DNA of 64,000 bases from Microglena sp. YARC (taxonomy: Eukaryota > Chlorophyta > Chlorophyceae > Chlamydomonadales > Chlamydomonadaceae): assembly GCA_022414725.1 (NCBI GenBank), contig CM039463.1, positions 27,118,003 through 27,182,002 of the forward strand, given 5' to 3'. Below are positions 10,901 through 62,388 of the stretch, piece after piece; position 1 is the stretch's first letter; each line of letters opens with the position of its first letter. Under the pieces are notes generated by a model, which made no database searches, was not told the DNA's origin, and saw only the letters and a program-made list of their open reading frames with translations. A program made the translations under genes and the position numbers.

Positions 10901-10918
10901 GGACAATACCATCAAACC

Positions 10919-15130: not shown

Positions 15131-15134
15131 CCTC

Positions 15135-17990: not shown

Positions 17991-17996
17991 TCCTCT

Positions 17997-18398: not shown

Positions 18399-18399
18399 T

Positions 18400-24258: not shown

Positions 24259-24294
<36 letters not shown>

Positions 24295-25307: not shown

Positions 25308-25350
<43 letters not shown>

Positions 25351-25614: not shown

Positions 25615-25645
<31 letters not shown>

Positions 25646-25891: not shown

Positions 25892-25941
<50 letters not shown>

Positions 25942-40397: not shown

Positions 40398-40694
40398 TTA
40401 TCCCTTCAGATCCTTCTCGAACTTGTCCAGCTTGCTAACCGTCTTGAAGCTGTTGAACACCATGAAGGCATACACGGCTGCCAAGCCTAGGGTCATGGTG
40501 GCGGCTCCTTGCATGGGACCCGAGACTGCAGCAGCAGGCTGAAGCGCAAGCATGGTGCCCATGTTGAGGAATCCAATACATCCAATGGCGTTCATAGTAG
40601 CTCCTTGAAGGACACCAGCACGGCGATCGGAGCGCTCTGCTTGTAGCACACGTACCCTCAACTGCAAGTCTCCAGCCTCCAGTGCCTCAAGAAC
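40398..40694 (-). CDS. ABC1K: ABC1K last exon
   Basis: 99 codons with TAA at 40398. [18 protein letters not shown], hydrophobic stretches, and C-terminus [11 protein letters not shown]. Acceptor ACCCAG|GTTCTT. Confidence 0.95.
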   Translation of the reverse strand, partial: VLEALEAGDLQLRVRVLQAERSDRRAGVLQGATMNAIGCIGFLNMGTMLALQPAAAVSGPMQGAATMTLGLAAVYAFMVFNSFKTVSKLDKFEKDLKG

Positions 40695-40874
40695 CTGGGT
40701 GTATGGTGTGTGTGTGTGAGTGGTGTGTGTGTGGGGCGGTGCGTGTGTGTGTGGTGGTGGTGGTGTGTGTGGGGGGCGGATTACCCTCAACTGCAAGTCT
40801 CCAGCCTCCGGCCCCCCAGAACCTGTGTGCGTGAGTGAGTGGTGCGTGTGTGAGTGTGTGGGGAGTCATGGGTG

Positions 40875-40905
<31 letters not shown>

Positions 40906-43900
40906 GGGGGGGCTGAGTTCCCTCAACTGCAAGTATCCAGCCTCCAGCGGCTCCAGAACCTGTCTGTGTGAGTGTGAGTGTGTAGGGTTGGGGTTGGTGT
41001 GTGTGTGTGTGTGGGGGCTGATAACACTAAACTGCTAGTCTCCAGCCTACATCCCCCCAGAACCTGTGTGTGTGAGTGTGTGTGGGGTGAGGGTTGGTGT
41101 GTGTGTGGTATGTGGTGTGTGGGGTGGTGTGTGTGAATGGGGGGGGAGGGCTGAGTACCCTCAACTACAAGTCTCCAGCCTCCGGCGCCTCCAGAACCTG
41201 CACCATCAGAGTGAGACAAGAAGATAAGACTGTCGTGATTTGAGTTGTTATTGTTCCTGACAAAGACTGCGAGCAGACTCAGATGAACAGTTACATATGC
41301 ACACGGGCAAAATTGGATCAAAGGCTGGTAGTGGCAAAAGTGGATCATAGCCATGTATCGAAATGTAATGGACGTAGTAGGACCTGGCTGACTAGGTAGG
41401 ACCATGTAGACTACATACATATATGCAAACACACTAGGAAGGACCATGCAGTCTACATACATATATGCACACTTACATACCGAGTCAGTTCACTGGATGC
41501 CAATGGGCGTGGCAGCAGGTGCAGTGGCGAGCTCAGAGGCTTGCTGCCCAACTTAGTTCCAAGCATGGTACGCTACCCGGCCTGGCACACTGGGTAGGAC
41601 CATGCAGTGTACATACATACATGCAAACACACTAGGCAGGACCATGTGGTCTACATACATACATGCAAACACACTAGGCAGGACCATCTAGTCTACATGC
41701 AAATATGCACACATACCTAGTCAATTCGCTGGATGCGGAAGGGCAGGTGCAGTGGCTAGCTCAGTGCCATGGTACGCTGCAGGGCCTGGCACACTAGGTA
41801 CCATCTACTCTACACACACACATGCACACACACATACCGAGTCAATTCGCTGGATGCGGAAGGGCATGGCAGCAGATGCAGTGGCTAGCTCAGAGGCTTG
41901 CTGTCCAACTTGGCTGATGAGCATGGTGCGCTGCGCAGCCTGGTCCACCTCCAGGTCTAGAAGGTCGACGGCATAGGGACGAGCCACCTCGCTGAACTTG
42001 TACTCGGGGTCAAGGGTCTTGCCGATGCCCTCCAAGGTGCTGAAGGCCCTCAGCACAAAGGTGAAAGTGGCGGGGAACCTGGAGGATGGGAGGGTGGGAG
42101 ATGACCAATTATTACATGGAAGAAGCAGAAGCAGAAGAAGAAGGACGGACTATTACATGGTTATTCAGCTCACGCCGGGCTGCTCACGTCAGGGCAAAAC
42201 ACTATCGGTGTATGGCAGCAGTATTGTCGGTGTACAGCAGCAGTACTTACAGTACAGTACGGCAAGATCCTACAGCAAAGACAGTTATGTTGTTCCTTCA
42301 ACGCGTGTTAAGTGCTTTGTGTGTGATGCATGTTACAGTAGTATTGCGAAGTATGTCAAGGTACTACTGTACAGCAAGAGATGCTATTTTTTTATCTGCT
42401 GAAGAATGAGAGCACAACAGCGCACCTCAAAGGCACTAAAGCAAACCTGTAAGGCACTACAGCACAGCACAGTAGCACACCTTGAAGGCACGACAGCACA
42501 GCATAGCAGCACACCTGAAAGGCATTACAGCACAGCATAGCAGCACACCTGAAAGGCATTACAGCACAGCATAGCAGCACACCTGGAAGTCACTACAGCA
42601 CACCTGGAAGTCACTACAGCACACCTGGAAGTCACTACAGCACACCTGAAAGTCACTACAGCACACCTGAAAGTCACTACAGCACACCTGAAAGTCACTA
42701 CAGTACACCCGAAAGGCACTACAGCACACCTGAAAGTCACTACAGTACACCCGAAAGGCACTACAACACACACAACACACCTGAAAGGCGCTACAGTGCA
42801 GCACATTAGCGCACCTGAAAGGCTGGTCGATGGCAATGGATAACAAGTCCTCCACGACAACAGCAATGGTCTCATTGCGCTCTGTTTGACCTATTTGTCT
42901 ACCCCAGAATGTAATAACATACACACAATAGCACACCTGAAAGGCTGGTCGATGGCAATGGAGAACAAGTCCTCTCCGATAGCTGCAATGGTCTCATTAC
43001 GCTCCGTTTGGCGGGCAAGGTTCTGCACATGGGGCAGTACGGGATGTGATGTGATCAGCTAAAAGACTTCAATTTGAGAACATCAGAGCTTTTACTAGCA
43101 GCTTCTAAGCAGTTCCCCGAGCCAAACACTGCACTACACACAAATATTTCAGTTTAGGTTTGGCGGGCAAGCTTCTGCACAAGAGGCAGTACAGGATTTG
43201 TGCTCAGCTTATGAACTTGTTTTTGAGAACGACAGAGCTTTTGGTGGTTGGCCCCAGTGCAAGCAAACAGGCTGGTCCCCTCGACCTCACGCCTCATAAT
43301 TTGAGAACATCAGAGATTTTGAATTTGAATTTAAGAACATCTTCAACCTTGACTTGGTAATATGGCCCCAGCCTGATAAGGCTACTAGACGTCTTGGGCA
43401 GCAACATCAACATTCAAAACATCTCTCTCTTCAAAGCCTACATATTCCAAGCTCACGAACACACCGACTCCCATCCATCCATCCATACTAACACATAACA
43501 CTACTACATACTAACACTACTTCATACTAACACTAACACTACTAACACTAACACACCGACTCCCATCCTCCCTTCCCTAGCTCACTAACATCAAAGTAGT
43601 AGCCGGAAGCTCCAACCCCTCAATTGATCCATCACACACACACCTACCCACCCAGCTGCCACCCAGCTTCCTAACTCGACCCCTACTTACTTACATCAAA
43701 TTCAATTGATCCAACACACACCTACCCACCCAGCTTCCACCCAGCTTCCTAACTCGACCCCTACTTACTTACTTACTTACATCAAATTCATTTGATCTAA
43801 CACACACACACACAGCTCTTCCCAACCTACCCACCCACCCAACTTCCACCCAGCTTCCTAACTCGACCCCCTACTTACTTACTTACATCAAAATAGCAGC

Positions 43901-46900
43901 TGATGGCACGAAACCCTCATTTGATCTAACACACACACACACCTCTTCCCAACCTACCCAGCTTCCACCCAACTTCCTAACACAACCCATCGCTTACTTA
44001 CATCAAAGAAGTAGCGGATGGCACGAAACCCTCACTTGATCTCACACGCACACACCTATTCCCAACCTACCCACCCACCCACCCAGCTTCCACCCAACTT
44101 CCTAACACGACAACTAGCTTACTTACATCAAAGAAGTAGCGGATGGCACAAACCCCTCACTTGATCCAACACCCGCACCCCTTCCCACCCACCCAGCTTC
44201 CACCCAGCTTCCTAACTTGACCCCTAGATTACTTACATCAATAAAGTAGCGGATGGCACGCTTCACAGTGATCAGGTCACCCTTGGCACGCACAACCTTG
44301 AGATCCACGAGGGCCCTGTTGGTTGTTGGTGGTCGTTGTTGGTTAATGTTGTTGGTAGTTGGTGGTCGTTGTTGGTTGATGGTTTCTTTTTTCTTTTCAC
44401 ACTTCACAGTGATCCCCCTTAGCACGCACAACCTTGAGATCCACACAGAGGAAACTGGTAAAATGCATGTCCGTGACGAGGTGCTCTGGTGAGACTAAAC
44501 TGTGCTTGGGGGGCTAGCCTAGCAACATGACAGGGTGAACCAGGCTTGCTTGTGTTGGTAAGGGTACTACAAAGCGCGCGCGGCAGCGCGATATCGTGCT
44601 TTCTTTTTGAGCCCCACTGCGCGTTTCGCGCAGTGTTTTCAACTCCCTGTGGGCGCAGCGCGCAGTTTTTGCACTTCTTGCACTGCTAAGCGCTGACCAA
44701 TTCGACGTTTGTGTGCCTCAAGCGCTGACCAATTTGACCCAATGTAGTACCCTGGTGTAGGTAAGGCCTGGCCTGATTGTCTGCTGGGCATGGAGCACTG
44801 GCTTACACAGTGGACGAGGGCCTTACCAACAGTGTACCATGCATGTGTGAAACACTGAAGTACACACTTGAAAGACACTGAAGTACACATTCGAAAGACA
44901 CACTGAAGTACACATTTGAAAGACACACTTAAAGTACACATTCGAAAGACACACTGAAGCACACTCTTGAAAGACACACTTAAAGTACACATTCGAAAGA
45001 CACACTGAAGCACACTCCTGAAAGACACACTTAAAGTACACATTCGAAAGACACACTGAAGCACACTCTTGAAAGACACACTTAAAGTACACATTCGAAA
45101 GACACACTGAAGCACACTCTTGAAAGACACACTTAAAGTACACATTCGAAAGACACACTGAAGCACACTCTTGAAAGACACACTTGAAGTACACACTTGA
45201 AAGACACACTGAAGTACACTATTGAAAGACACACTTGAAGTACACACTTGAAAGACACACTGAAGTACACACTTGAAACACACTGAAGCACACATTCGAA
45301 TGACACACTGAAGCACACTCTTGAAAGACACACTTGAAGTACACACTTGAAAGACACACTGAAGTAAACTATTGAAAGATACACTTGAAGTACACACTTG
45401 AAAGACACACTGAAGTACACACTGAAGTACACACTTGAAAGACACACTGAAGCACACTCTTGAAAGACACACTTAAAGTACACATTCGAAAGACACACTG
45501 AAGCAAACTCTTGAAAGACACACTTGAAGTACACACTTGAAAGACACACTGAAGCACACCCTTGAAAGACACACTTGAAGTACACACTTGAAAGACACAC
45601 TGAAGTACACTATTGAAAGACACGCTTGAAGTACACACTTGAAAGACACACTAAAGTACACACTTGAAAGACACACTGAAGTACAAACTTGAAAGACACA
45701 CTTCAAGTACACATTTGAAGTACACAGTGAAGTACTCACTTGATCACTTGGTCAGCATTCTTCCTGTAAATGCCATAGAACATCTCAAGCAATGTCCCCT
45801 TCACATTGCCATCGATCGTTCCCATCATGCCGAAGTCGTAGTAGATCAAGCTGTGGTTAGAGGTGTGGTGACGGAGTGGTGAGGGACGTGGTGAGCGAGT
45901 GGTAGGTGGTGTGTTGAGCGAGTGGTGAGGAAGTGGTGAGGGAGTGGTGAAAGGTGTGGTGATGGAGTGTCGTTGGGTGTTGTGAAAGTGTGGTGAGGGG
46001 AAGTCATACAAGATCAAGCTGTGGTTTGAAGTGTGATGAGGGGGTGGTGAGGGAGTGGTGAGGGAGTGGTGAGGGAGTGATGTGGTGAGGGAGTGGTGAG
46101 GGAGTGGTGGGGGAGTGGGAGGGAATCGTTGTGAGAGTGTGGTGAGGTAAAGTATACATCAAGCTGCAGTGAGAGGTGTTGTGAGAGTGTGATGAGGTGA
46201 AGTATATAGATCAAGCTGCAGTGAGAGGTGTTGTGAGAGTGTGATGAGGTGAAGTATATAGATCAAGCTGCAGTAAGAGGTGGTGTGAGAGTGTGATGAG
46301 GTGAAGTATATAGATTAAGCTGCAGTGAGAGGTGTTGTGAGAGTGTGATGAGGTGAAGTATATAGATCAAGCTGCAGTGAGAGGTGTTTTGAGAGTGTGG
46401 TGACGGGAGGTTGTAGTACATCACCTTACTAACCCAACCACCTAAATCACCTTACCAACCAACCAACCCCCCCACACACACTCACCTTCCATTATTAATA
46501 CCGCCAGACACGTCGACAGCAACGTTTCCAGGATGGGGATCAGCATGAAAGAACCCATGCTTCAGGATCTGAACGTGATTGAAGAATGGAGACTGTTAGT
46601 CCGAGTACTGTTTACTTATACGTTTGCTGCATTGGGTGACCATCACTGCTGATTTGGGGGCTCATTTTGGCTTACTAATTCAGGATTGGGCCAAACACCA
46701 CCAAACAAAGTGCGAATTTTTTGATCCAGCCAGAATAAAAAAAAATCTCCCAGGAATAAAGGGTGCATTCTGGGTGGGGAGGGTGCTGCAGGGGTGCAGA
46801 AGAGGGTGCTTGCAAGGGCGCATTCTGGGTGGGAAGGGTCCTGCAGGGGTGCAGAAAAGGGTGCTTGGAAGGGTGCATTATAGGTGGGAGGGGTCCTGCA

Positions 46901-49900
46901 GGGGTGCAGAAGAGGGTGCATTCGGGGTGGCAAGGGTCCTGCAGGGGTGCAGAAGAGGGTGCTTGCAAGGGTGCACTCTGAGTGGGAGGGGTCCTGCAGG
47001 GGTGCAGGAGAGGGTGCTTGGAAGGGTGCATTCTAGGTGGGAAGGGTGATGCAGGGGTGCAGAAAAGGGTGCCTTAAAGGGTGCATTCTGGGTGGGGAGG
47101 GTGCTGCAGGGGTGCAGAAAAGAGTCCTTGAATGGGTGCATTCGGGGTGGAAAGGGTCCTGCAGGGGTGCAGGAGAGGGTGCTTGGAAGGGTGCAATATA
47201 GGTGGAAAGGGTGCTGCAGGGGTGCAGAAAAGGGTGCCAAAGACCCCCCTAGATTTGCAATGCCCTGGAGGGGATAGTTCTCTCGGGGCTAAGCGCATAA
47301 GAGGATTTGTATGGAAGTTACAGTCAGCTACTCTAGCGTGAGCTTGCCTCAATGCCACATACTTCGCAAACATTTTTCGTGTTGGACAACCATCCATTCA
47401 AGAACTTCTATAGCGGTCACTTAGAGTCCTTGGTTGGTTCTGCTTGCATTTGCAGGTGCATTGGCATTTGCATGATGCTCTGGGCACCAACCTGAGAACG
47501 CGTGGGGCTCTACCTATTCGGCAGATGTCTGATGGTGAACTGGTACCCTTATGCCTGCAGACAACACAACCAGACCTTACTGATAAGCGCACCTTAGCGC
47601 ATGCCTGCTTTATTCAGTCTGCATGTTGCACACACCCACCCACACCACACCCACCCACCACACACCACACACCCATAGTCTGCATGTTGCACGGACTTAT
47701 TATGCTTGCACCTTTACATATAAATAATACATATATTTCAGTCCTGCGTCACTATTTATAAGGACGATGCCTGCTGGTGAGCCGGTACCCTAATGCCTGA
47801 ATGCATACACGCACACAAACATACACACATACACACCTGCATGAGCTACACAACATACACACCTGCACACACAGCTTACACACATACACACCTGCATGAG
47901 GTACGCCTCGGTTGACCTCTGGGCAATGCTGTCTAGGGAAACGCCTGCAGCTTTCAGTCCTTCTCTGTCAGTGATCTTCACACCTAAAATGTTGGTTCAT
48001 AATGCAGGTTCTTAGCAAGTTGAATTGTTGATGATGCAGGTCGTTAGCAAGTCAAATTGTTGATAATGCAGGTTGTTAGCAAGTCGAATTGTTGATAATG
48101 CAGGTTGTTAGAAAAGTTGAAATGTTGATGATGCAGGTTGTTAGAAAAGTTGAATTGTTGATAATGCAGGTTGTTAGCAAGTTGAATTGTTGATAATGCA
48201 GGTTGTTAGCAAGTTGAATTGTTGATGATGCAGGTTGTTAGCAAGTCGAATTGTTGATAATGCAGGTTGTTAGAAAAGTTGAAATGTTGATGATGCAGGT
48301 TGAAATGTTGATGATGCAGGTTGAAATGTTAGTTCATAATGCAGGTTGTTAGCAAGTTATAAGCAGGTTGTATAAGCAGGTTGTAAACATATAGAGAGAG
48401 AGCAGGTGAAGTCACCCAAAATGTGATCTGATGATTGCAGAATTAAGTGTGTGTGTGTGTGTGTGTTTTGGTGGGGGTTGTGTGGGTGGGGGGTTGTGTG
48501 ATCTGATGATCATATAGAACGACTTGTGTGCGTGTGCGTGTGCATGGGGGGGGGGAAGTCGTGTGGGTGGGTGTGGGTGGGTGGGTGTTTGTGTGTGTGT
48601 GTGTGGGGGGGGGAGGATCGTGTGTGTGTGTTTGTGTATGTGATCTGATGCTCATAGAATGACAAACAAGCGCAAGAAACAGCTGTACACTAGTTTTCCC
48701 ACCTCAACACCGTGCTAGCATGTACTGTATGTAGCATGTGTTTTATCCATCGTATGATGTCCTACGCACCCTATGCAATAAATTGACTTATCATGCCATG
48801 TATCCCAAATACACAGTACGAGGTCGTGCAGTACATCGACACTTTGTACCGTCATTCAGACATACATGGCACTATATTGTGTAGTACATCGACACGTTGT
48901 ACTGTCATTCAGGAATGCATAGCACTATATTCTGCAGTACATGGTACAAGATCTACAATATTTATGGAGAGCAGTTCGATGTTGACAACCCTAGGGCTTG
49001 AGTAGTAATAAGAGATCATTAGCAGGCCTACCTGGCATGTACTCCAGGGTGAGGACCCTAGGGCTTGAGTACTCCCAGTACACCTGAGGGACACGCACCC
49101 ACGGGGTGTCCTTGAAGTTACGACGGAAGCGATCACTGCGTTGTACAGGTTGGTTGGTTGCAGTCAACAAGTTGAAAGGGTTGGTTGGTTGAGTCAATGA
49201 GTTGAAAGGGTTGGTTGGTTGTGGTCATTGAGTTGAAAGGGTTGGTTGGGTGAGTCAATGAGTTGAAAGGGTTGGTTGGTTGTGGTCATTGAGTTGAAAG
49301 GGTTGGTTGGGTGAGTCAATGAGTTGAAAGGGTTGGTTGGTTGTGGTCATTGAGTTGAAAGGGTTGGTTGGTTGTGGTCATTGAGTTGAAAGGGTTGGTT
49401 GGTTGTGGTCATTGAGTTGAAAGGGTTGGTTGGGTGAGTCAATGAGTTGAAAGGGTTGGTTGGGTGAGTCAATGAGTTGAAAGGGTTGGTTGGTTGTGGT
49501 CATTGAGTTGAAAGGGTTGGTTGGTTGTGGTCATTGAGTTGAAAGGGTTGGTTGGGTGAGTCAATGAGTTGAAAGGGTTGGTTGGGTGAGTCAATGAGTT
49601 GAAAGGGTTGGTTGGTTGTGGTCATTGAGTTGAAAGGGTTGGTTGGTTGTGGTCATTGAGTTGAAAGGGTTGGTTGGTTGTGGTCATTGAGTTGAAAGGG
49701 TTGGTTGGTTGTGGTCATTGAGTTGAAAGGGTTGGTTGGTTGTGGTCATTGAGTTGAAAGGGTTGGTTGGTTGTGGTCATTGAGTTGAAAGGGTTGGTTG
49801 GTTGTGGTCATTGAGTTGAAAGGGTTGGTTGGTTGTGGTCATTGAGTTGAAAGGGTTGGTTGGTTGTGGTCATTGAGTTGAAAGGGTTGGTTGGTTGTGG

Positions 49901-52900: not shown

Positions 52901-55900
52901 CAAGAACGCATAAAATATCAAATACAACAAGGGACTCGTCTTCTCCACTGTGGCACTCACTCCGCCACACACCACCGCCACCAACACCAATACCATAACC
53001 ACCAGCACTAGCAACACCACCACCTCATTCTGCTTGATTTGGGAAGTAGAGGGATGAGACATCAAACCAATGTTAACAACATCAGACTAACTGAAGGTAG
53101 AGGCCCCCATACTGATGCATAGAATTCATTCCAGGTGGAGAGTGTAATCATTAGAATATTGAGTGACAGGATAAACTGTTGCTTTTGCGAAGGCTTTCTT
53201 AATAGCAATTCAGGGGATGAACTGGACAAACCGTTTCCGCGAGATCTCGTACTTGGTACTTAGTCGAGAATTTCGGCCTGGAAATCCGAGAATTCTTGAC
53301 AATTTGGCCTGGAATTCTCAAGAATTCTCAACATAGTAGGAAATCCGAGAATTCTTGACAATTTGGCCTGGAATTCTCAAGAATTCTCGACATAGTAAGA
53401 AATCCGAGAATTCTTGACAATTTGGCCTGGAATTCTCAAGAATTCTCGACATAGTAGGAAATCCGATAATTCTTGACAATTTGGCCTGGAATTCTCAAGA
53501 ATTCTCGACGCAGTAGGAAATCCGAGAATTCTCGACAATTTGGCCTGGAATTCTCAAGAATTCTCGACAAAGTAGGAAACGTTTGTCCAGTTCATCCCCT
53601 GAATTGCTGTAGAAGATGCAAAAGAGTACCAATGTTCATTGGGCAAGAAAAAACTAACTGGCACTCACTTAGCCTCATCCTGCTTGTCTAGCTGGGATGC
53701 CAGGATCTTCATATTGTTCAGATCGATGTCAAACAAGGTCTTCAGGCCTGGGCGCTGCACCTTCACCACCACTTGCTCTCCAGTGAACAGAGTAGCACGG
53801 TGGACCTACACGAGGGTCGGGTGGTGTGTGGGAGGTGTGGTTGGTGGTTGGTGGGGTGCAGGTGGTGGGGTTGGTGGGGGTGTTGCTGGGGTGGGTTTGG
53901 GTGAGGTGGGGCGCTGCACCTTCACCACCACTTGCTCTCCAGTGCAGCATGGTGGACCTATACGAGGGTCGGGTGGTGTGCGGTTGGTGTGGGTGGTGGT
54001 GTGCGGGTGGTGGGGGTGTTAGTGGGGTGGGTTTGGGTGAGGTGCGTCGCTGCACCTTCACCACCACTTGCTCTCCAGTGCAGCATGGTGGACCTATACA
54101 AGGGTCGGGTGGTGTGTGGTTGGTGTGGGTGGTGGTGTGCGGGTGGTGGGGGTGTTGGTGGGGTGGGTTTGGGTGAGGTGGGTCGCTGCACCTTCACCAC
54201 CACTTGCTCTCCAGTGCAGCATGGTGGACCTATACGAGGGTCAGGTGGTGTGCGGTTGGTGTGGGTGGTGGTGTGCGGGTGGTGGGGGTGTAGGTGGGGT
54301 GGGTTTGGGTGAGGTGGGTCGCTGCACCTTCACCACCACTTGCTCTCCAGTGCAGCATGGTGGACCTATACAAGGGTCGGGTGGTGTGCGGTTGGTGTGG
54401 GTGGTGTGTGCGGGTGGTGGGGGTGTTGGTGGGGTGGGTTTGGGTGAGGTGGGTAGCTGCACCTTCACCACCACTTGCTCTTCAGTGAAAAGAGTACCAT
54501 GGTGGACCTACGCGGATTGTGGGAGGTGTGGGTGGTGGGGTGAAACTGGTGCAGATGGTGCGGGTGGTGCGGTGGATGGAGGTATTGATGGGGTGGGCTT
54601 GGGTGAGGTGGGGCGCTGCACCTTCACCACCACTTGCTCCCCTATGAACAGAGTAGCACGGTGGACCTAAGCGGGCGGGTCAGGTGGTGTGTGGTTGGTG
54701 GGGTGCAGGTGGCTGGGGTGGTGATGGGGTGGGTTTGGGTGAGGTGAGGTGAAAGTGGCGAGGGTGGGGTGGAGGGTGAGGTGGTTTGGGTGAGGGTCTT
54801 ATGCGACAGTCAGAAACTTGACCACTAGAAGATGTTTCGTCAAAAATCATTTGTGTTCGTTGATTTTTTTTTAATATACATTCCACAAAAATATTTGTGT
54901 GCGATGTTATTTTTGGCGGAGCCCCCCACCCCTTCTGGGAGACGGGAGCCCCCTAGAGTTCCCCGGTTGTCTGTTTCATAGTCGCGTTGTTGTGTTGCCG
55001 TGTTGTTTCCTGGTCATGCTGTCTTCAGGTAACCCAGACCCTAACTGGCCCCTAGGCCCTGTCCTAAACCCTGGCTTCAGTCCACTGCACTCCATTCCAG
55101 AGCTTCCAATCACTCAGATAGCCAACACTCTCCACCAATTTTCTGCCCCACTTGCAAAGCACCTAGGACTTGTTTAAATAAACATTGAATACGTACAGTT
55201 GTACGCATTCCTTTTATTTCATGTTCACCTGGCCCAGACTGGCAGCAGCAAAGGGTCAATCAAATATCTTGAGCAGCTAAGTGACTGGCTTCCCTAAGTC
55301 CTTCTTAATGATGGCTTGGCAGAGAGAGACTTGCCCCCTGGTAAGTTTAACATTAACAGTTATTTGTATGCATTATTTGTATGCATTATTTGAATGCATT
55401 GTTTTATGCATTATTTGTATGCATTTTTTGTATGCATTTTTTGTATGCATTTTTTGTATGCATTATTTGTATGCATTATTTGTATGCATTGTTTTATGCA
55501 TTATTTGTATGCATTGTTTTATGCATTATTTGTATGCATTTTTTGTGTGCTTTACTTCATGCATTATTTGTATGCATTATTTGTATTTTATGTTTACCTG
55601 GCCCAGACTGGCAGCAGCAATGGGTCGGTCGTCGAAGCTCTTGAACAGCTTGGTGACTGGCTGCCCCAGGTCCTTCTCGATGATGGCCTTGGCCTTCTCT
55701 GCAGAGAAGGCTGGCACACGATCCTACGGGTGGGTGAGGGGAGCAATAAGCACGTGGGTGTGGGTGTGTGGTACTGAGTGTAGGTGTCTGTGTTAGTGGT
55801 ACTGTGTGGAGGTGTGTGTGTATGTGTGGTCCTGTGTGGAGGTGTGTGCGCGTGTGGTACTTTGTGGAGGTGTGTGTGTGTGGTCCTGTGTGCGGGTGTG

Positions 55901-58900
55901 TGCGCGTGTGGTACTGTGTGAAGGTGTGTGTGTGTGGTACTGTGTTTGTGTGGTCCTGTGTGGGGGTATGTGCACGTGTGGTACTGTGTGGAGGTGTGTG
56001 TATGTGGTCCTGTGTGTGTGTGGTCCTGTGTGTATGAGGGTGGTACTGTGTGGAGGTGTGTGTGTGGTACTGTGTGTGAGTGGTCCTGTGTGGGTTTGTG
56101 TGCTCGTGTGGTACTGTGTGGAGGTGTGTGAGTGTGGTCCTGTATGTGTGTGGTCCTGTGTGCGGGTGTGTGCGCGTGTGGTACTGTGTGGAGGTGTGTG
56201 TATGTGGTACTGTGTATGTGGTACTGTGTGTGTGGACCTGTGTGGGGGTGTGTACCGTGTGGTACTGTGTGGAGGTGTGTGTGTTCACAAAGGCAGCAGG
56301 GTGAAATGTACCACACACTACCATGATGTACTTCACACTACCATGATGTTTGTTTGTATAGTGGTGAGCTTGTTCACAAAATAAGCAGAGTGGACTAAAT
56401 TACATTCAGAACTGCAATGTTATTTGGCCTTTAGCAGCGCCAACTCCACAACCTACAGAAGTATGTGTGTGCGTGTGTGTGGTGGGTAAGCGTATGTGTG
56501 TGTGAGTGTACTCAATGTTAACATTAATTACATTCAGAACTGCAATACACAAACATGACGTACCTGTACCAAAACCCATCACACTAAAACCTGAAACCCT
56601 AGTTACATGCACTCAAGTCCGCTTTAGCCGTTTTTTGTTTGTGGGTGTACACCGTAACCGACAGACGTATAACGTGACGCGCGCGTAGAGTGTGTAAAGT
56701 AAGTTTGCACACATGTACAGTGATTCATACAAACATGATATACAGATGTACAGTAGCACATCCTAACATGATATAACTGTGCAGTAGTAGGTGGTAAGAC
56801 ATATAATGAAAAAGTAATGATAACGCCTGGTGGGGTGTGGTGTTAAGGGACAACATCGTACACGGGTAGAGAATTGGTCTACCACCTCAACTGGACAAGC
56901 TACCATCGCGGTTGACAGCGACCTGCAGCGCTCAGGGTGCCCGTAGGGAGAATCAAACCCCCGACCCCGCTTTATTAAAGCAATATGGTGTACCACTAGA
57001 CCAATTGTATCACTCAAACTGGCTACATATAATGTTGTTACAAGGCGCACCTGAAGAGTGTTGATATACAGATGTACAGTAGTACATGCTAACATGATAT
57101 AACTGTGCAGTGGTCGGTGGTAAACCCCAACCCCTAAATATTTAACATATAATGATATAACATGACGCACTTGTAGAGTGGTTAGTTCATTGACGAAGGC
57201 AGCAGGGAACAGATCACTCCTCGTAGAACTCAGCTGTCCCAGCTTGATGAAGGTGGGGCCCTGCAAGGTTTAGGGGGGGGGAGGGGGGGAGGTGAGTGGT
57301 TTCTAGTAGGTGTTGTAGTGGATTCTAGTGGTTAGTAGAGGGTTATGGTGTTTGTTGTAATGGGCAACAGTGTCTTGTTGCGTAATCTAGTTGCGTCACT
57401 CACCAAGTTGAGTAATGAATCAAGCTGGTAGTGGGCTACAGTTTTTTATGTGTAGCTTTCCAAAATTTCTCAGAAAATACAAAGAAGCACGTTTACATTT
57501 CTCTGAATGGTCCTCATATTCCTAAAATGACATTAGGGCCACCGGTTGTCAAATATTTCAGAAAACAAACAAGCTGGTTGAGCCTCTCACCAAGTTGAGT
57601 ACTGAATCAAACTGGTAGTGGGCTATATAGTTTTTGAGGTTCATCTTCCTCTAAACTTCTCAGAAATTACAACAAAGCATGTCCAAATTTCTATGGAGAG
57701 TCATTTTATTCTTACCGGTAGTCATTTCAATAATTAGTCATTTTGTACCCAACCATTTTGATCCTCAACTTACATTTGGGCCACCGGTTATCAAATATTT
57801 CAGAAAGCATACAAGATAGTTACGCCCCTCACCAAGTTAAGTACTGAGCTGAGCAGGTAACGAGCTCAAATTCTTGATGTGTAACTCAGGTGCAACTTGA
57901 CTAAATTTCTCGGAAATACAGTAGTAAATAATATGCTAGTTGAGCCTCTCACCAAGTTGAGTCCTGAGTTGAGCAGGTAACGATCTCGAATTCTTGATGT
58001 GTAACTCAGGTGTAACTTGACTAAATTTCTCGGAAATACAGTAGTAAATAATATGCTAGTTGAGCCTCTCACCAAGTTGAGTACTGAGTTAAGCAGATAT
58101 CGAGCTAGCTCCTTGGTGCGCTCGTCTTTCTTCTCATCTGTCATGCCACCAGGGTAGGACCACTTCTTATCCAACAGCGACAAGCGAGTGCGGAAGACGG
58201 CGAAGAAAGTCCTGTTCCAATAAAAAAATGGTGTAGATACATAAATACATAAAAACTAGTTACCGTATCTAATCTACCATTCCTCCCATATTTGTTTTAT
58301 ATGTTAAATCAATATGCATGTATGTGTATGTATATATGTATGTTTAATATGATACAGCAATATATATGTATGTGTGTATATATGTATGTTTTATATGATA
58401 TAGCAATATGTATTTAGGTGTGTATATATGTATGTTTTATATGATATAGCAATCTGCATGTATGTGTATGCCTATACACAGGTTTGTTTTGTTTTTAGCA
58501 ATAAGCATGTGTTATTTGAATATGTATATATGTATGTATTATATGTTACATAGCAATATGAATGTATATATGTATGTTGTTGGATGACTACTATCACTTT
58601 AACTAATAAGGCGTATTATGAGGCTAGCTACAATGTGTTGATTAATGTACACACTAAGTATCTGTGTTATATTACGAGGCTAAATCTTGGTGTATTTCGA
58701 GGCTAACTTCGATTACTCCAACTAATGAGGCGTATTATGAGGCTAGCTACAATGTCTTGATTAATGTACACACCAAGTATCTGTGTTATATTACGAGGCT
58801 GAATCTTGGCGTATTTCGAGGCTAACTTTGATTACTCCAACTAAGAAGGCGTATTATGAGGCTACCTACAATGTCTTGAATAATGTACACACCATGTATC

Positions 58901-59195
58901 GGTGTTATATTATGAGCTAATTAACGGCATATTTCAAGGCTAACTCCTCTTCCTTTAACTAATAAGGCATATTATGAGGCTAGCTACGATGTATTGATTA
59001 ACCTACACACCATGTATCAGTGTTCCTTTGAAGAGCGTTGTTATCGTCCTGGGACTACTTGTAATCAGCCTCATAGTAAGGCATACTACCACATCATAAT
59101 GAGGCCTACTAAAGCCCCATAATAAGGCTTGCTATGTACTGAGTAATGTACACACCATGTATCCGTGTTCTTAGGCTGGGGTATGTGTGTGTGTC

Positions 59196-59227
<32 letters not shown>

Positions 59228-60166
59228 GGGGGGTGGGGGGGGGGGGGGGGTATGTGTGTATGTACTGTCGCCTCATAATAAGGCATACTAACGCCTCGTA
59301 ATGAGGCGTACTTACGCCTCGTAAAAAGGCGCACAAACTCCTCGTAATGAGGCACACTACACCTTGTAATAAGGCGTACAACCGCCTTGTAACGAGGCAT
59401 ACTAACGCCTCATAATGAGGCATACTTACGCCTCGTAATGAGGCGTACTAATGCCTCGTAAAAGGCGCACAAACGCCTCGTAATGAGGCACACTACACCT
59501 TGTAATAAGGCGTACAACCGCCTTGTAATGAGGCATACTAACGCCTCGTAATAAGGCGTACAAACGCCTCATAATGATGCATACTAAACCTTGTAATAAG
59601 GCGTACAAACGCTTCATAATGAGGCGTACTAACGCCTCATAATAAGGCTTGCTATGTCTTGAATAATGTACACACCATGTGTCGGTGTTCCTTTGCAGAG
59701 CATTGTAATCATCCTGGGACCACTTGTAGTCGGCCTCATCGGGACGGTCCAAAATCTGAGTCTCTCTGGGCTCCACTACCTCAGCCTCAACAAACATGGC
59801 GGCATCCTGGTCGAGTGAGTTAGGACCTCCAGCCCGCAGCCCTGCTTTCTTAGCAACCTCCAAAGAGGCGGTGCGGACTGTGGGTTTGGGTGGGTTTGGG
59901 GATTGAGGTGGGATTGGAAGATGGAGGTGGGGATGGAGGTTGGGTGAGTTAGCACCTTCCGCCCGCTGCTCTGCTTCCTTAGCAAACTCCAAAGGACCGT
60001 GCGGAATGTGGGTTGGGTTGGGGTTGGGGGATGTAGGTGGCGGTGGAGGTAGGGGTGGTTGGTGTGGGTGTGGGGGGGTGGGTTGGGGGTGGTAGGTGGG
60101 AGCTACATGATACTATGGTACGGATCATTGCTGAGTTATACGTGTCAGTATCCGCATCCACACACA

Positions 60167-60234
<68 letters not shown>

Positions 60235-60928
60235 GTGTGTGGCTGGTCCGCAATTAAATTGTGCAACACCGTTTACCTGAGAGCTATGCAACTTGACTGC
60301 AAAATCACACAAAAAAGGCCTTTCCACCGTGAACAAATTACTTCTGTAGGAATCCTCGGACTTCCTTTCTGAATTCTTGGTGGGAGCTGGTTTCTGTACA
60401 GGGTCCCACTTCTATTCCATGGGTTAACATCCATTTAATAAAATAAAATCAAACATCCATGTAATAAAATAAAATAAAACATCCATGTAATAAATGAAAT
60501 AAAATAAAAACATCCATTCAATACAAAATAAAACCGCAAGACATACCAGCAGGAATGAAAGAGGCCTTCGCTCATACAATGTAACAATTCAAATTTAAAT
60601 TCAAAAACACACCAGCAGGCATGAAAGAGGCCTCAGCCAAAACCATGTAACAATTCAAATTCAAAAACTTACCAGCAGGCAATACAGAGGTCTTAGCCAA
60701 AACCATGCCTCTCTTGCTCTTCTGCTTAGACATGTCATTCTCCTCTATGCTGCCTGCACAAGCACAAGAATATACCAAACATAGTTAGGCATAGCATATT
60801 TTCAGAGTCACTACCCTATAACCCTAAACCCTGGGTGTGGTCCCAGGGGGAATTTCAAACATTCAGGAAAAAAACATGTTTGTCCTGTTGTGGGTTAGTG
60901 TGGGTGTATGTGTGTGTGTGTGTGGTGT

Positions 60929-60982
<54 letters not shown>

Positions 60983-62388
60983 CATAGCGTCAGCAGGTGT
61001 GTGTGTGTGTTAAGCAGGTCCACAGTCCAAGGCTAAGTGGGACCTATCCACCTCCACACACCACACACCACCAACTCTCTCCACACAGCACACATACACA
61101 TGCACACAGCGAATTATTGTGTAGGGTAAATAATCTGTGCGTCCAAACCCAACATGCACGGGTTACACATATTAAACTTAATCCGTAAACCCTAAAGAAA
61201 ACCTGATCATTTGTGTCAACTGAGTGCCCAAGCTCTGCATGTACCAGGTTCCTCATTTAAAAAACTCTACCCCAAAACCATTAAACCCTGATCATTTGTG
61301 TCAACTGACTGCCCAAGCTCCGCATGTACACAAGTCCTCATTTAAACTCTACCTTTAAACCCTTTGCCCTGATCATTTGTGTCAACTGACTGCCCAAGCT
61401 CCGCATGTACACAGGTCCTCATTTAAACCCTACCTTTAAACCCTAAGCCCTGATCATTTGTGTCAACTGACTGCCCAAGCTCCGCATGTACACAGGTCCT
61501 CATTTAAACCCTACCTTTAAACCCTAAGCCCTGATCATTTGTGTCAACTTACTGCCCAAGCTCCGCATGTACACAGGTCCTCATTTAAACCCTACCTTTA
61601 ATCCCCAAGCCCTGATCATTTGTGTCAACTGACTGCCCAAGCTCCGCATGTACACAGGTCCTCATTTAAACCCTACCTTTAAACCCTAAGCCCTGATCAT
61701 TTGTGTCAACTTACTGCCCAAGCTCTGCGTGTACACTGGTCCTCATTTAAACTCTACACCTCACCCCTTAGCCCTGATCATTTGTGTCAACTGACTGCCC
61801 AAGCTCCGCATGTACACAGGTCCTCATTTAAACCCTACACCTCACCCCTAAGCCCTGATCATTTGTGCCAACTTACTGCCCAAGCTCCGCATGTACAAAG
61901 GTCCTCATTTAAACTCTACACCTCACCCCTAAGCCCTGATCATTTGTGTCAACTGACTGCCCAAGCTCCGCATGTACACAGGTCCTCATTTAAACCCTAC
62001 ACCTCACCCCTAAGCCCTGATCATTTGTGTGCAACTTACCTGGTCCAAGGTCCGGCATGTACAACTGGTTCTCTTCCCCCCCTTAGCTCTTCAGGGTCAT
62101 CCATGCTGCTACTGCCTGCGTTCACAAGTAAAGCGGGTGTTTGAGATCAATGCGCATGGAATCTTGCTGCTAGTGCAGCGTGCACATACAATGTGGGTGT
62201 TACATAGAATGCATATGATCCATGCTGCAAGTGCCTGCCTGCACATGTAACATGGGTGTTGGTTTGTCGTGGGGTGGGGTGGGTGTGTGGGTGTGGGTTC
62301 TAGGTGTAGTGATATGTAACGCATAGATTGAATGCATATGGGCATACATACCAGAGGAAAAGCTGACCTGACCCGCTGACCTGACCCC
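40398..62388 (-). CDS. ABC1K: ABC1/UbiB-type atypical protein kinase, probably plastid (18 exons, 5' end missing)
   Basis: ABC1K kinases act in plastid prenyl-lipid and redox metabolism at plastoglobules and envelope. Eighteen minus-strand exons can be joined with matching phase at all 17 introns, giving about 699 codons. Motifs in order: [11 protein letters not shown] (KxGQ signature), [11 protein letters not shown] (Ala-rich loop replacing the P-loop), VVVKVQRPG (nucleotide-binding Lys), GEIDY (ExD), HADPHPGN (catalytic loop), YYDFGMMG (metal-binding DFG). A C-terminal region with [16 protein letters not shown] precedes two weak hydrophobic stretches and the end [23 protein letters not shown] and the C-terminus resemble the ABC1K7/ABC1K8 plastid group; that clade call is from memory. 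The first exon and transit peptide were not found and should lie above 62388. Exons make up about 10% of the span. Introns hold copies of exon edges and several transposons. Confidence 0.93.
40770..41205 (-). repeat. Four copies of the ABC1K last-exon start with acceptor
   Basis: Copies of about 45 nt (acceptor, then codons for [13 protein letters not shown]) at roughly 40776, 40918, 41024 and 41155, spaced by (TG)n-poly-G spacers of about 100 bp. Confidence 0.88.
41470..41800 (-). repeat. Two copies of ABC1K exon 17 end plus donor
   Basis: 41475-41590 and 41715-41800 repeat up to about 90 nt of the exon 17 end with donor. Between them lies an array of TAGGACCATGYAGTCTACAT units. Confidence 0.85.
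41838..42078 (-). CDS. ABC1K: ABC1K visible exon 17
   Basis: 241 nt, [20 protein letters not shown] to [10 protein letters not shown]. Donor ACTCG|GTATGT. Confidence 0.95.
42405..42830 (-). repeat. Donor-derived array after ABC1K exon 16
   Basis: About 16 units of 20 to 40 bp built around TTTCAGGTGTGCTGTAGTG, which equals the last exon 16 bases plus the donor. Confidence 0.85.
42825..42897 (-). pseudogene. Diverged duplicate of ABC1K exon 16
   Basis: Open frame [20 protein letters not shown], about 80% identical to exon 16, with donor TTTCAG|GTGCGC but no clean acceptor. Either a decayed duplicate or an alternative exon; decayed is more likely. Confidence 0.65.
42937..43022 (-). CDS. ABC1K: ABC1K visible exon 16
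   Basis: 86 nt, [20 protein letters not shown] to DQPF, phase 2. A second diverged copy of this exon sits at 42825-42897. Confidence 0.94.
43560..44165 (-). repeat. Copies of ABC1K exon 15 end plus donor
   Basis: About five copies of the exon 15 end (CGCTACTTYTTTGATGTAAG type) near 43580, 43690-43790, 43885, 44000 and 44125, about 120 bp apart, split by CACACACC/CCCACCC tracts. Confidence 0.8.
44237..44315 (-). CDS. ABC1K: ABC1K visible exon 15
   Basis: 79 nt, [20 protein letters not shown] to YFID. Acceptor CAACAG|GGCCCT, donor TTGAT|GTAAGT. Confidence 0.94.
44395..44450 (-). repeat. Copy of ABC1K exon 15 5' half
   Basis: 50 nt matching exon 15 (GTGGATCTCAAGGTTGTGCG and on) with an 8-nt deletion, 90 bp upstream of the true acceptor. 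Confidence 0.8.
44560..44754. mobile_element. hAT-like MITE, GTACTTCC family, copy 3
   Basis: Terminal inverted repeats AAGGGTACTACA and TGTAGTACCCTG, flanked by 8-bp duplication GTGTTGGT/GTGTAGGT (one mismatch). Internal sequence matches 1877-2048 and 38729-38920 in inverted orientation. Confidence 0.82.
44860..45735. repeat. Minisatellite of about 27 bp starting at the ABC1K exon 14 donor
   Basis: Over 30 units of CTTGAAAGACACACTGAAGT type. The unit resembles the first 25 nt of the intron after exon 14. Reads open over 277 codons on the minus strand (Cys/Val/Phe/Ser repeats), which is an artefact. Confidence 0.92.
45740..45850 (-). CDS. ABC1K: ABC1K visible exon 14 (DFG)
   Basis: 111 nt, [18 protein letters not shown] to NADQVI. 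Holds the metal-binding DFG. An 880-bp array starts at its donor. Confidence 0.95.
45995..46395 (-). repeat. Copies of ABC1K exon 14 acceptor edge
   Basis: Units of about 59 bp carry GATCAAGCTGCAGTGAGAGG, the reverse complement of the exon 14 acceptor and first bases; six copies between 45995 and 46385, with a GTGGTGAGGGA array between. Confidence 0.82.
46486..46568 (-). CDS. ABC1K: ABC1K visible exon 13 (catalytic loop)
   Basis: 83 nt, [20 protein letters not shown], containing the ABC1 catalytic loop. Donor GGAAG|GTGAGT in phase 2. Confidence 0.95.
46740..47265. repeat. Minisatellite of about 56-60 bp
   Basis: About nine units containing GTCCTGCAGGGGTGCAGAAA and GGGTGCTTGGAAGGGTGCAT. It ends in GTGCCAAAGACCCCCCTAGA, the end of a dispersed element also at 1510-1617 and 7336-7940, so the array probably grew inside a copy of it. 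Confidence 0.85.
47785..48370. repeat. Arrays on both sides of ABC1K exon 12
   Basis: 47815-47880 repeats the exon 12 end CTCATGCAG|GTGTGT two to three times. 47990-48370 holds about 13 units of 28-30 bp (TTGTTGATAATGCAGGTTGT) starting at the acceptor side. Confidence 0.8.
47892..47983 (-). CDS. ABC1K: ABC1K visible exon 12
   Basis: 92 nt, [20 protein letters not shown] to EAYLMQ. Acceptor TTTTAG|GTGTGA, donor ATGCAG|GTGTGT. Confidence 0.94.
49032..49135 (-). CDS. ABC1K: ABC1K visible exon 11
   Basis: 104 nt, [20 protein letters not shown] to LTLEYMP, phase 1 donor CCAG|GTAGGC. Confidence 0.94.
49146..50095. repeat. 31-bp minisatellite, about 30 copies, two variants
   Basis: Unit GTTGAAAGGGTTGGTTGGTT followed either by GTGGTCATTGA (31 bp) or, with a changed junction, GTGAGTCAATGA (30 bp). 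The two types alternate at the left and the first becomes homogeneous to the right. Starts directly at the acceptor of ABC1K exon 11. Confidence 0.93.
50290..50380 (-). repeat. Partial copy of ABC1K exon 11 beyond the array
   Basis: Matches the exon 11 stretch encoding GWVRVP-like and RRNFKD codons plus acceptor, about 75% by eye. The 31-bp array lies between it and the true exon. Confidence 0.75.
50640..51080 (-). repeat. Copies of ABC1K exon 10 end plus donor
   Basis: Four to five units of about 95 bp with CCCTCATCAATGTAGTCAAT, the reverse complement of the exon 10 codons IDYIDEG, near 50658, 50736, 50828, 50934 and 51034. Confidence 0.88.
51122..51199 (-). CDS. ABC1K: ABC1K visible exon 10 (ExD)
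   Basis: 78 nt, [19 protein letters not shown] to DEGRS. Acceptor ACACAG|CGACTA, donor CAGCGC|GTGAGT. Confidence 0.94.
51825..53040 (-). repeat. About eight copies of ABC1K exon 9 end plus donor
   Basis: Copies of TGGCACTCACYYAGCCTCAT near 51831, 51932, 52277, 52429, 52554, 52679, 52804 and 52949. Three central ones are spaced by exactly 125 bp. Each includes the exon 9 codons LDKQDEA and the GTGAGT donor. Confidence 0.9.
52039..52258. mobile_element. hAT-like MITE, CAGGGATTTTTAT family, copy 3
   Basis: CAGGGATTTTTATTTCCGC to TTTGAAAAAATAATCACTG with 8-bp duplication AACAACAC/ATCAACAC (one mismatch). Located in the ABC1K intron after exon 9. Confidence 0.85.
53204..53608. mobile_element. 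Inverted-repeat element containing a 59-bp satellite
   Basis: 35-bp inverted ends (AGCAATTCAGGGGATGAACT) surround five units of 59 bp (starts 53282, 53341, 53400, 53459, 53518), each rich in GAGAATTCTTGAC / TCAAGAATTCTC inverted motifs. 405 bp; no clear target duplication. Confidence 0.85.
53669..53805 (-). CDS. ABC1K: ABC1K visible exon 9 (VVVK lysine)
   Basis: 137 nt, [20 protein letters not shown] to LDKQDEA. Both edges have been copied many times into the flanking introns. Confidence 0.95.
53905..54690 (-). repeat. 136-bp repeat with ABC1K exon 9 start, acceptor and VVVK codons, six copies
   Basis: Copies begin at 53914, 54050, 54186, 54322, 54457 and 54616. Four lack 8 nt and are out of frame. 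The copies at 54457 and 54616 read in frame ([19 protein letters not shown] for the latter) after an AG acceptor. Confidence 0.92.
54905..55180 (+). mobile_element. TTTTTGGCGGAGCC element, copy in ABC1K intron 8
   Basis: Starts ATTTTTGGCGGAGCCCCCCA and ends CACCTAGGACTTGTTT, matching 37426-37640 at both ends. Confidence 0.75.
55226..55340 (-). pseudogene. Decayed full copy of ABC1K exon 8
   Basis: About 75% identical to exon 8 with two in-frame stops and AAASLGQ|GTGAAC retained. An array of GCATTATTTGTAT units (55355-55590) separates it from the true exon. Confidence 0.85.
55355..55590. repeat. ATTATTTGTATGC minisatellite
   Basis: About 15 units of 13-16 bp abutting the donor of ABC1K exon 8. 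Confidence 0.88.
55598..55723 (-). CDS. ABC1K: ABC1K visible exon 8 (AAAS loop)
   Basis: 126 nt, [20 protein letters not shown] to [10 protein letters not shown], phase 0 at both ends. A decayed copy lies at 55226-55340. Confidence 0.95.
55790..56285. repeat. GTGTGGTACTGTGTGGAG minisatellite
   Basis: Units of about 35-50 bp alternating GTGGTACTGTGTGGAGGTGT and GTGGTCCTGTGTGCGGG, adjacent to the acceptor side of ABC1K exon 8. Open in most frames, not coding. Confidence 0.88.
56283..57165 (-). repeat. Copies of ABC1K exon 7 end and donor region
   Basis: 56283-56312 repeats the exon 7 part encoding AAFVN. 56730-56770 and 57045-57110 repeat the donor-proximal intron with GCACCTGAAGAGTG. The SINE at 56818 inserted within these copies. 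Confidence 0.7.
56818..57030 (-). mobile_element. tRNA-derived SINE, copy D
   Basis: More diverged (A box TGGTCTAGTGGTACACC), flanked by exact 10-bp ACATATAATG on both sides. In the ABC1K intron between exons 7 and 8. Confidence 0.85.
57171..57260 (-). CDS. ABC1K: ABC1K visible exon 7 (KxGQ)
   Basis: 90 nt, [19 protein letters not shown] to TTLQ. Holds the ABC1 signature KxGQ. Acceptor TTGCAG|GGCCCC, donor CTACAA|GTGCGT. Confidence 0.95.
57400..58030 (-). repeat. Four copies of ABC1K exon 6 end plus donor
   Basis: Copies of the [14 protein letters not shown] edge near 57403, 57588, 57828 and 57948. The last two and the true exon are spaced by 120 bp and stay open across two units, reading [17 protein letters not shown]. 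Confidence 0.9.
58073..58211 (-). CDS. ABC1K: ABC1K visible exon 6
   Basis: 139 nt, [17 protein letters not shown] region through LLNSVLNL. Donor AACTTG|GTGAGA; its end plus donor is repeated downstream. Confidence 0.92.
58620..59170 (-). repeat. Copies of ABC1K exon 5 end plus donor
   Basis: 118-120 bp units near 58645, 58763, 58883 and 59003, plus a short one at 59145, carry CACACCATGTATCNGTGTT, the reverse complement of NTDTW|donor. The 59003 copy keeps about 60 nt of exon. Confidence 0.87.
59265..59660. repeat. Palindromic 22-23 bp minisatellite ACGCCTCGTAATGAGGCGT
   Basis: About 17 units; each unit is a perfect or near-perfect palindrome with a 5-nt loop (ACGCCTC ... GAGGCGT). A higher-order unit of about 115 bp repeats twice. 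Confidence 0.93.
59676..59877 (-). CDS. ABC1K: ABC1K visible exon 5
   Basis: 202 nt ending [19 protein letters not shown], the pre-kinase motif typical of plastid ABC1K proteins. Donor ACATG|GTGTGT. Confidence 0.85.
59880..60010 (-). repeat. Copy of ABC1K exon 5 start with acceptor region
   Basis: 59935-60005 copies exon 5 codons for [13 protein letters not shown] as [13 protein letters not shown], and the upstream GGGTTTGGG-rich intron is copied with it (unit about 120 bp). Confidence 0.85.
60169..60232. repeat. (AG)32 microsatellite
   Basis: Uninterrupted AG dinucleotides in the ABC1K intron before exon 5; reads (CT)n on the sense strand. Confidence 0.95.
60342..60386 (-). CDS. ABC1K: ABC1K visible exon 4
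   Basis: 45 nt, [15 protein letters not shown], acceptor ACCAG|CTCCC and donor AGAA|GTAATT. Chosen because only this acceptor keeps phase with both neighbours. Confidence 0.55.
60540..60645 (-). repeat. Two copies of ABC1K exon 3 end plus donor
   Basis: At 60545-60580 and 60610-60645, reading [17 protein letters not shown], versus [12 protein letters not shown] in the exon. Unit about 60-65 bp. Confidence 0.85.
60673..60749 (-). CDS. ABC1K: ABC1K visible exon 3
   Basis: 77 nt, [20 protein letters not shown] and on, acceptor GGCAG|CATAG, donor GCTG|GTAAGT. Two downstream partial copies of its 3' end. Confidence 0.65.
60929..60981. repeat. Homopolymer G53
   Basis: 53 consecutive G after (TG)n; C53 on the ABC1K sense strand, in the intron upstream of exon 3. 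Confidence 0.9.
61205..62035 (-). repeat. 81-bp minisatellite derived from ABC1K exon 2 end, about 10 copies
   Basis: Unit with CTGATCATTTGTGTCAACT and CCCAAGCTCCGCATGTACA. It matches the exon 2 end plus donor (TGTACATGCCGGACCTTGG, then GTAAGTTG), with the donor GT mostly lost to CAGTAAG or CAGTCAG. Confidence 0.92.
62040..62115 (-). CDS. ABC1K: ABC1K visible exon 2
   Basis: 76 nt, encoding [17 protein letters not shown] and on, from AACGCAG| to CCAG|GTAAGT, phase 2 to the next. Its 3' end is the source of the 81-bp array at 61205-62030. Confidence 0.6.

Follow-up and report, generated by a model that had tools for sequence, protein, structure and literature searches.

Copies of exon edges and splice sites within introns of the green alga Microglena sp. 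YARC

Introduction

At the human CBS gene, a 31-bp VNTR lies on an exon-intron boundary, and its minisatellite units repeat the donor splice site. That is a single locus, whereas in the alga studied here most sampled introns hold copies of a neighboring exon edge. Introner elements are another source of repetitive intron sequence, occurring as families spread over many genes, and the arrays of the alga differ from them in being private to each intron.

Boundary-crossing duplication has been described in the potato RdRp gene, where a tandem duplication crosses an intron-exon boundary and its splicing signals are inherited from the parent junction. According to the available part of that report, this is one case and it gave a new intron and extra exon sequence (PMC4974935), whereas here most sampled introns are affected, the partial copies are apparently spliced out and existing introns lengthen. 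The same available text covers the Rogers model, in which tandem duplication provides extra GT and AG sites, as it does here, and an intron resulting from the process resembles its downstream exon at its start and its upstream exon at its end (PMC4974935). That model makes introns from exonic AGGT segments, and its intron-start signature is absent in this alga. Chicken genes with introns composed of tandem repeats have also been reported in what is available of another study (PMC6792250).

Among green algae, Chlamydomonas reinhardtii and Volvox carteri have their highest tandem-repeat density in introns, rising towards the intron ends (PMC3887541, available portion), and the introns described here are likewise repeat-rich with repeats towards their ends. 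The abundant intron motif in those two species is GT/AC, and units with exon and splice-site sequence are not described in the available portion of that report (PMC3887541). Conspicuously long introns of unexplained cause are a further feature of green algae, as stated in the accessible text of PMC8226300. Our literature search, which mostly did not extend to subscription papers, found no introns generally built from their own exon edges in titles or in the openings of abstracts. Boundary-crossing duplication and repeat-rich algal introns are thus both known, and we regard the pervasive exon-edge form as new.

Results

An ABC1K gene with exon-edge copies in its introns

The window, by which we mean the whole analyzed stretch of 64,000 nucleotides (C2:27118003-27182002), comes from an assembly of 568 Mb in 2390 contigs, and GC is 0.49 across the loci retrieved from this genome. 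The window holds a gene encoding an ABC1K kinase (Pfam ABC1, E = 4e-80). It lies on the minus strand with 16 exons in the window, running from 62115 to 40401 with GT..AG introns and an unbroken reading frame, and two further 5′ coding pieces are found beyond 64000, outside the window (locus L042). The closest protein is P0001, a EukProt prediction apparently from the same species, followed by two metagenome proteins and then by Volvox and Chlamydomonas proteins at 67-68% identity.

P0001 agrees with the ABC1K exons apart from two places, the 3′ end of E1 and a stretch of 17 residues in E10 that it lacks. The E10 residues absent from P0001 (47892-47942) have a counterpart in C. reinhardtii P0005, and the deposited model was probably mispredicted here. 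At the 3′ end of E1 (62040-62070), the window compares with P0001 as if it had three extra single bases. Judged by eye, copies in the array beside E1 are closer to P0001 than E1 itself is, which suggests local sequence errors at this exon end.

The exons and the associated repeats, in window positions, are as follows.

62040..62115, minus: ABC1K E1, first exon within the window
61202..62063, minus: 81-bp array of 10.5 units in intron 1, weakly related to the E1 donor edge (30-nt edge score 15; no call in the 20-nt test)
60673..60749, minus: E2; a donor-edge copy lies 60 bp into intron 2, array rows 60541-60707
59676..59877, minus: E3; its acceptor edge has a copy in intron 2, and its donor edge has copies in intron 3
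59010..59072, minus: intron 3, a partial and decayed copy of the 3′ end of E3 that includes an in-frame stop (tblastn of P0001)
58601..59024, minus: 119-bp array with E3 donor-edge copies, intron 3
58073..58211, minus: E4; four donor-edge copies in intron 4
57817..58106, minus: 120-bp array with E4 donor-edge copies, the outermost unit overlapping the true exon end
57171..57260, minus: E5; weak donor-edge copy near 57039 (by eye)
55598..55723, minus: E6
55223..55318, minus: decayed copy of the 3′ part of E6 with stops, intron 6 (tblastn of P0001)
53846..54695, minus: 136-159-bp arrays in intron 6 that repeat the E7 acceptor together with the opening codons of the exon
53669..53805, minus: E7
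52373..52835, minus: 126-bp array with E7 donor-edge copies, intron 7; more copies at 51820-52960 (by eye)
51122..51199, minus: E8
50930..51161, minus: 100-bp array with E8 donor-edge copies, intron 8
49032..49135, minus: E9; intron 9 is without a junction-spanning copy
47892..47983, minus: E10; a single copy of its donor edge lies 55 bp into intron 10
46486..46568, minus: E11
46128..46403, minus: 52-bp array with E12 acceptor-edge copies, intron 11
45740..45850, minus: E12
44852..45743, minus: 25/51/102-bp array in intron 12, extending 4 nt into the E12 donor edge
44237..44315, minus: E13; intron 12 has a partial copy of the acceptor side at 44412-44444
43831..44212, minus: 125-bp array with E13 donor-edge copies, intron 13
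42937..43022, minus: E14
42424..42888, minus: E14 donor-edge copies, intron 14, including a long decayed copy without stops at 42814-42888 (tblastn); 21/34-bp arrays lie beyond
41838..42078, minus: E15
41478..41552, minus: decayed copy of the E15 3′ end with a stop, intron 15 (tblastn of P0001)
40652..41200, minus: 136- and 104-bp arrays with E16 acceptor-edge copies, intron 15, the outermost unit overlapping the true exon
40401..40694, minus: E16, last exon

In local alignments of ABC1K exons against introns, 12 of 31 adjacent pairs outscored all 225 non-adjacent pairs (Mann-Whitney p = 2.5e-8), which confirms the exon-edge copies of the original prediction. When only the last 30 nt of each exon were used, 10 of 15 donors scored above every non-adjacent comparison, as did 4 of 16 acceptors for the first 30 nt.

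The prediction that the pattern recurs in two neighboring genes was also borne out. One is a SecE-like gene, for which the top NCBIfam match, secE_bact (E = 2e-4), is below the curated cut-off. The other is an unnamed plus-strand gene that runs from 28391 to beyond 36012 with a first exon at 28391-28528 and includes a 14-copy donor array.

21710..27884, minus: SecE-like gene, 4 exons (27702-27884, 25174-25278, 23985-24032, 21710-21817), 147 aa
25388..25888, minus: SecE-like exon 2 acceptor-edge copies, with older copies to about 26310 (by eye)
24720..24933, minus: SecE-like exon 2 donor-edge copies
21761..22006, minus: 131-bp unit, 1.9 copies, with the acceptor and start of SecE-like exon 4
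32676..32811, plus: exon of the unnamed gene
32766..33755, plus: 14-copy donor array of 69-bp units (46 nt of exon, 23 nt of intron), 93% matches
35743..36034, plus: 105-bp acceptor array of the unnamed gene, its last unit overlapping the exon that starts at 36012

Exon-edge copies are common within and beyond the window

Junctions were placed for 19 introns of the window: 15 from ABC1K, 3 from the SecE-like gene and 1 from the unnamed gene, whose first intron was excluded because exons are possibly missing within it. Using a 20-nt window test, we found a junction-spanning copy in 17 of the 19, the exceptions being ABC1K introns 1 and 9.

For comparison with the rest of the genome, ABC1-paralogue and CCT-chaperonin loci were picked by protein-family matches and not by the pattern; the Adaptin family (25 hits) was left out. 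ABC1 gave 65 hits in all, with 45 scored for edge copies and 43 for intron placement. The excluded rows were presumed repeat copies of exons, rows outside the retrieved regions and the window's own rows, and intron placement further excluded two hits at C3:19572639-19573243. For CCT, 54 of 64 hits were used. Within the distance limits, 45 neighboring exon pairs yielded 38 introns and 7 cases without one, and we kept the 32 introns that were at most 1 residue off the family alignment with a margin of at least 3.

A copy scoring at least 22 in the adjoining 2.5 kb was present for 25 5′ edges and 22 3′ edges of the 45 ABC1 exon hits; in the control, the best of up to 15 other-contig flanks reached this score for 3 and 6, respectively. 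Mid-exon stretches had copies at the same score in 11 of the 45 hits, so copies are not limited to edges, which counts against the explanation that we favor below. Among the 32 outside introns, 18 donor and 16 acceptor edges exceeded the 99th percentile of cross comparisons, where 0.3 would be expected, and the corresponding numbers for the 19 window introns were 12 and 9. These cross comparisons (2198 per edge type, with controls that included related paralogues) had a 99th percentile of 13 and maxima of 24 and 28. In the two gene families sampled outside the window, intron-exon self-similarity therefore greatly exceeds the random level.

By the junction-spanning test, 24 of the 32 outside introns carried a copy (11 of 12 in ABC1 paralogues, 13 of 20 in CCT), and these lie on five contigs. 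Together with the window this gives 41 of 51 introns with such a copy and 10 without, at the donor in 34, at the acceptor in 28 and at both in 21. The claim that nearly every intron is affected is thus too generous for the wider sample. That copies always include the splice site was likewise too strong, since 134 of 178 exon-derived copies run through it and 44 do not. The sampled introns have a median length of 1254 bp; for core-Reinhardtinia, a median of 198-343 bp is given in the accessible text of PMC8226300.

Copies are direct, private to their exon and decayed

Of 2029 exon-edge windows, 740 had direct copies in their own intron, 1 had an inverted copy and 7 matched one random unrelated intron. 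Each array is thus private to the exon it borders, as had been predicted, and introners or a shared transposon are not supported as the source, given only 7 unrelated-intron matches and the 99th percentile of 13 in the cross comparisons. The copies also lie near the exon they match. Over successive intron fifths, donor-edge copies (n = 88) were distributed 41/26/15/5/1 and acceptor-edge copies (n = 60) 0/3/9/23/25. Direct copies that adjoin their source exon indicate that local duplication across junctions lengthens these introns. The head-to-tail units with exon sequence and splice site resemble boundary minisatellites, though clean full-length neighbors are in the minority: at 48 junctions, only 9 best copies have an alignment that covers 0.7 or more of the distance separating them from the junction. 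Decay has thus left most units no longer recognizable as clean tandem duplicates. Some copies may have moved or been interrupted.

At these 48 junctions, the best copies differed by 0-21% from their own exon edge, with a median exon part of 34 nt and a median intron part of 22 nt. The exon share was spread broadly, at 4/11/13/12/8 over five bins, and TRF arrays overlapped true exon ends. The nearest edge copy (48 junctions, 51 introns) was a median of 160 bp away, with quartiles of 118-200, near nucleosome-size spacing. Copy spacing modulo 3 was 16/15/17, which gives no sign of frame selection.

Tandemly duplicated, alternative exons were considered and are not supported. None of the 48 best copies extended to the far end of the known exon stretch, which in the sampled genes is the family hit and not always the full exon. 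Mismatches by codon position were 0.095/0.071/0.152 with a third-position excess (p = 7e-6), and 14 in-frame stops were found in 1895 copied codons. A freely drifting copy paired with an exon that changes mostly at third positions should give this mismatch pattern, and the copies thus behave as intron sequence.

Two neighboring ABC1 duplicates, L019 (C2:29199456) and L020 (C2:29180625), share an intron that is 2921 bp in the one and 1767 bp in the other, and the number of edge copies within it differs.

Repetition continues from the intron through the junction

The fraction of 20-nt windows repeated in the same intron was 0.47-0.57 around the donor and 0.45-0.46 around the acceptor, compared with 0.35-0.54 (donor side) and 0.37-0.47 (acceptor side) at 10-200 nt into the intron. 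At 71-100 nt into the exon it had fallen to 0.14 (donor) and 0.09 (acceptor), with controls at 0-0.9%. Repetitiveness is therefore roughly level over intron and junction and fades across 60-100 nt into the exon, and in the profile of 51 introns the junction does not stand out clearly from the intron interior. On the donor side, the fraction was 0.565 at -10..-4 in the exon and 0.35-0.40 at 20-40 nt into the intron, returning to 0.50-0.54 beyond 80 nt. A slight excess on the donor side is to be expected, since copies of a conserved exon template stay recognizable for longer than those of a drifting intron template.

We simulated random tandem duplications starting from a 150-nt intron, rejecting only those that were wholly exonic or spanned the whole intron. 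The simulation, which tests shape only since its 41 unit sizes were entered by hand and distances above 216 bp were left out, gave continuity through the junction, decay into the exon and a median of 1.3 kb after 8 events. Simulated repeat levels were too high, as expected for a simulation without sequence decay. It also over-predicted the exon depth of copies (0.46/0.86 at 85 nt, against observed ratios of ~0.3 for donors and ~0.2 for acceptors), which may mean that selection removes longer exonic pieces or that they escape detection. Given the roughly level profile and a random-breakpoint model of similar shape, junction-crossing duplications look like part of a general tandem-duplication process, and the special role that had been proposed for the splice junction is not supported.

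For this window only, repetitiveness within 1 kb came to 0.47 for introns, 0.27 for exons and 0.15 for the rest. It was 0.33-0.34 at positions 1-6000, outside the gene models, and 0.01-0.10 at 8001-20000. The long first intron of the unnamed gene had values of 0.00-0.01 at 28-32 kb.

Copied splice sites are largely intact

Among 73 donor copies, 59 retained GT, and among 62 acceptor copies, 55 retained AG. The copied dinucleotides were kept about as well as neighboring exon positions (0.89 vs 0.86 and 0.93 vs 0.88) and better than more distant intron positions (0.74 and 0.70). We looked for erosion of GT and AG in the copies, as selection against copied sites would produce, and saw none. With a weight matrix built from 20 window introns, which favors the true sites of the window, the true site scored above the best copy at 8 of 27 donors (9 ties) and 8 of 21 acceptors (5 ties). 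Copied sites are often as strong as the true ones, and thus the short motif alone cannot decide between them. Because the conserved protein needs the outer sites, we infer that position or context decides. Judging from protein conservation and the gene models, the outermost donor and acceptor would be the ones used. Some copies could nonetheless serve as alternative sites.

Probable growth of old introns

When intron starts were compared in register with downstream exon starts, the score was 10.33, against 10.42 ± 0.22 for shuffled pairs, and none of 51 introns reached 22 of 30. Intron ends compared with upstream exon ends gave 11.10, against 10.63 ± 0.21 shuffled, again with 0 of 51 at 22 or more of 30. 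An intron at ..(G/A)Q|V.. in the kinase domain is in the same place in 8 ABC1-family genes, a shared position that marks it as old, and in 7 of the 8 it has an edge above the 99% control. In our reading, these are old introns that have since grown.

Discussion

We think it most probable, at roughly three chances in four, that introns already present are lengthened by local tandem duplications whose breakpoints fall at random, and that these are tolerated since splicing still uses the outermost sites. Of the proposal that introns grew by local duplication across splice junctions, the lengthening is upheld by direct copies that adjoin their exons, and the special part given to the junction is not. 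Apparently an exon border is hardly more of an obstacle to short tandem duplications than the interior of an intron. The sample behind this explanation is two gene families and one window.

We hypothesize that short DNA stretches would be duplicated locally and repeatedly, head-to-tail, with breakpoints random relative to splice sites. A duplication wholly within a coding exon would alter the protein and presumably be purged, whereas one within an intron or across an exon edge could survive with the 5′-most donor or the 3′-most acceptor still in use. The extra copy, partial exon included, would be spliced out, and it could then decay or seed a new duplication while the true exon stays conserved. 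In this way a short old intron would turn into a mosaic in which its own sequence and that of its exon edges are repeated. Replication slippage or unequal exchange is our inferred molecular step, and the loss of wholly exonic and whole-exon duplications we would ascribe to selection. More tentatively, and with the odds against it, splice-site duplication could be near-neutral with sites chosen by position rather than motif strength, for instance by way of strong exon definition or a very rapid co-transcriptional commitment to the outermost donor and acceptor between two exons, making intron growth a one-way ratchet in which intron size is set mainly by the rate of tandem duplication in genes.

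A process directed at the junctions themselves, with breaks or repair templates tied to splicing or R-loops copying the edges and junctions acting as hotspots, would account for the 134 of 178 exon-derived copies that pass through the splice site, for the higher repetition just inside the donor exon than at 20-40 nt of intron, and for window introns being more repetitive than the rest (0.47 vs 0.15). However, the profile has no clear junction peak, the donor-side intron is as repetitive again beyond 80 nt, the small exon-side excess is what a conserved exon and a decaying intron template would give, and the exon share of copies is broad rather than fixed. We consider this process unlikely. A regulatory role, in which copies are retained as decoys, alternative splice sites or partial exons, draws on the many intact GT and AG dinucleotides and on the true site being best at only 8 of 27 and 8 of 21 junctions, but these dinucleotides are kept roughly no better than adjacent exon positions, spacing is blind to reading frame, divergence is non-coding-like with stops present, and between the paralogues L019 and L020 both the number of copies and the length of the intron vary. 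Such a role strikes us as improbable, even more so than hotspot junctions.

Birth of the introns by tandem duplication of exonic AGGT segments, with the copies as birth relics, is harder still to credit. Tandem duplications here do take in exon sequence together with GT or AG, and intron ends are slightly more like upstream exon ends than in shuffled pairs, yet copies match the edge of their own exon beside their own junction and not the opposite exon in register (0 of 51), and the ..(G/A)Q|V.. position shared by 8 genes must be old. Collapsed or misassembled repeats can be given almost no weight. The differences between E1 and P0001, as if by single-base indels, make local errors possible; against an artefact on the scale required stand best copies that are up to 21% divergent from the exon edge, gene-private arrays on five sampled contigs besides the window genes, and the fit of P0001 to the exons around the arrays.

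Growth of old introns by random local duplication suggests a route to longer introns without transposons, and duplication across junctions could link the end-crowded repeats reported in the available portion of PMC3887541 with the long algal introns of PMC8226300, likewise known from its accessible text. The alga is also a natural experiment in splice-site choice, in which one pre-mRNA holds many sites that are nearly identical and the usable one is seemingly set by place and not by motif. Exon-edge copies may mislead gene finders, and the omission of 17 E10 residues from P0001 is a possible case.

Several other repeats were observed in the window. ABC1K intron 7 holds a MITE-like insert (53201-53608) with near-identical inverted ends of ~30 nt around five 59-bp units, and the units (53280-53579) themselves resemble inverted repeats. 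A dispersed repeat with conserved translation, perhaps tRNA-derived, lies at 2489-2536 (plus), 4619-4708 (minus), 6891-6998 (plus) and about 56880-57000 (by eye). An AT-rich palindromic motif of the ATATGATATCATATGATATC type recurs, by eye, at 31630-31700, 34540-34580 and 63870-63890.
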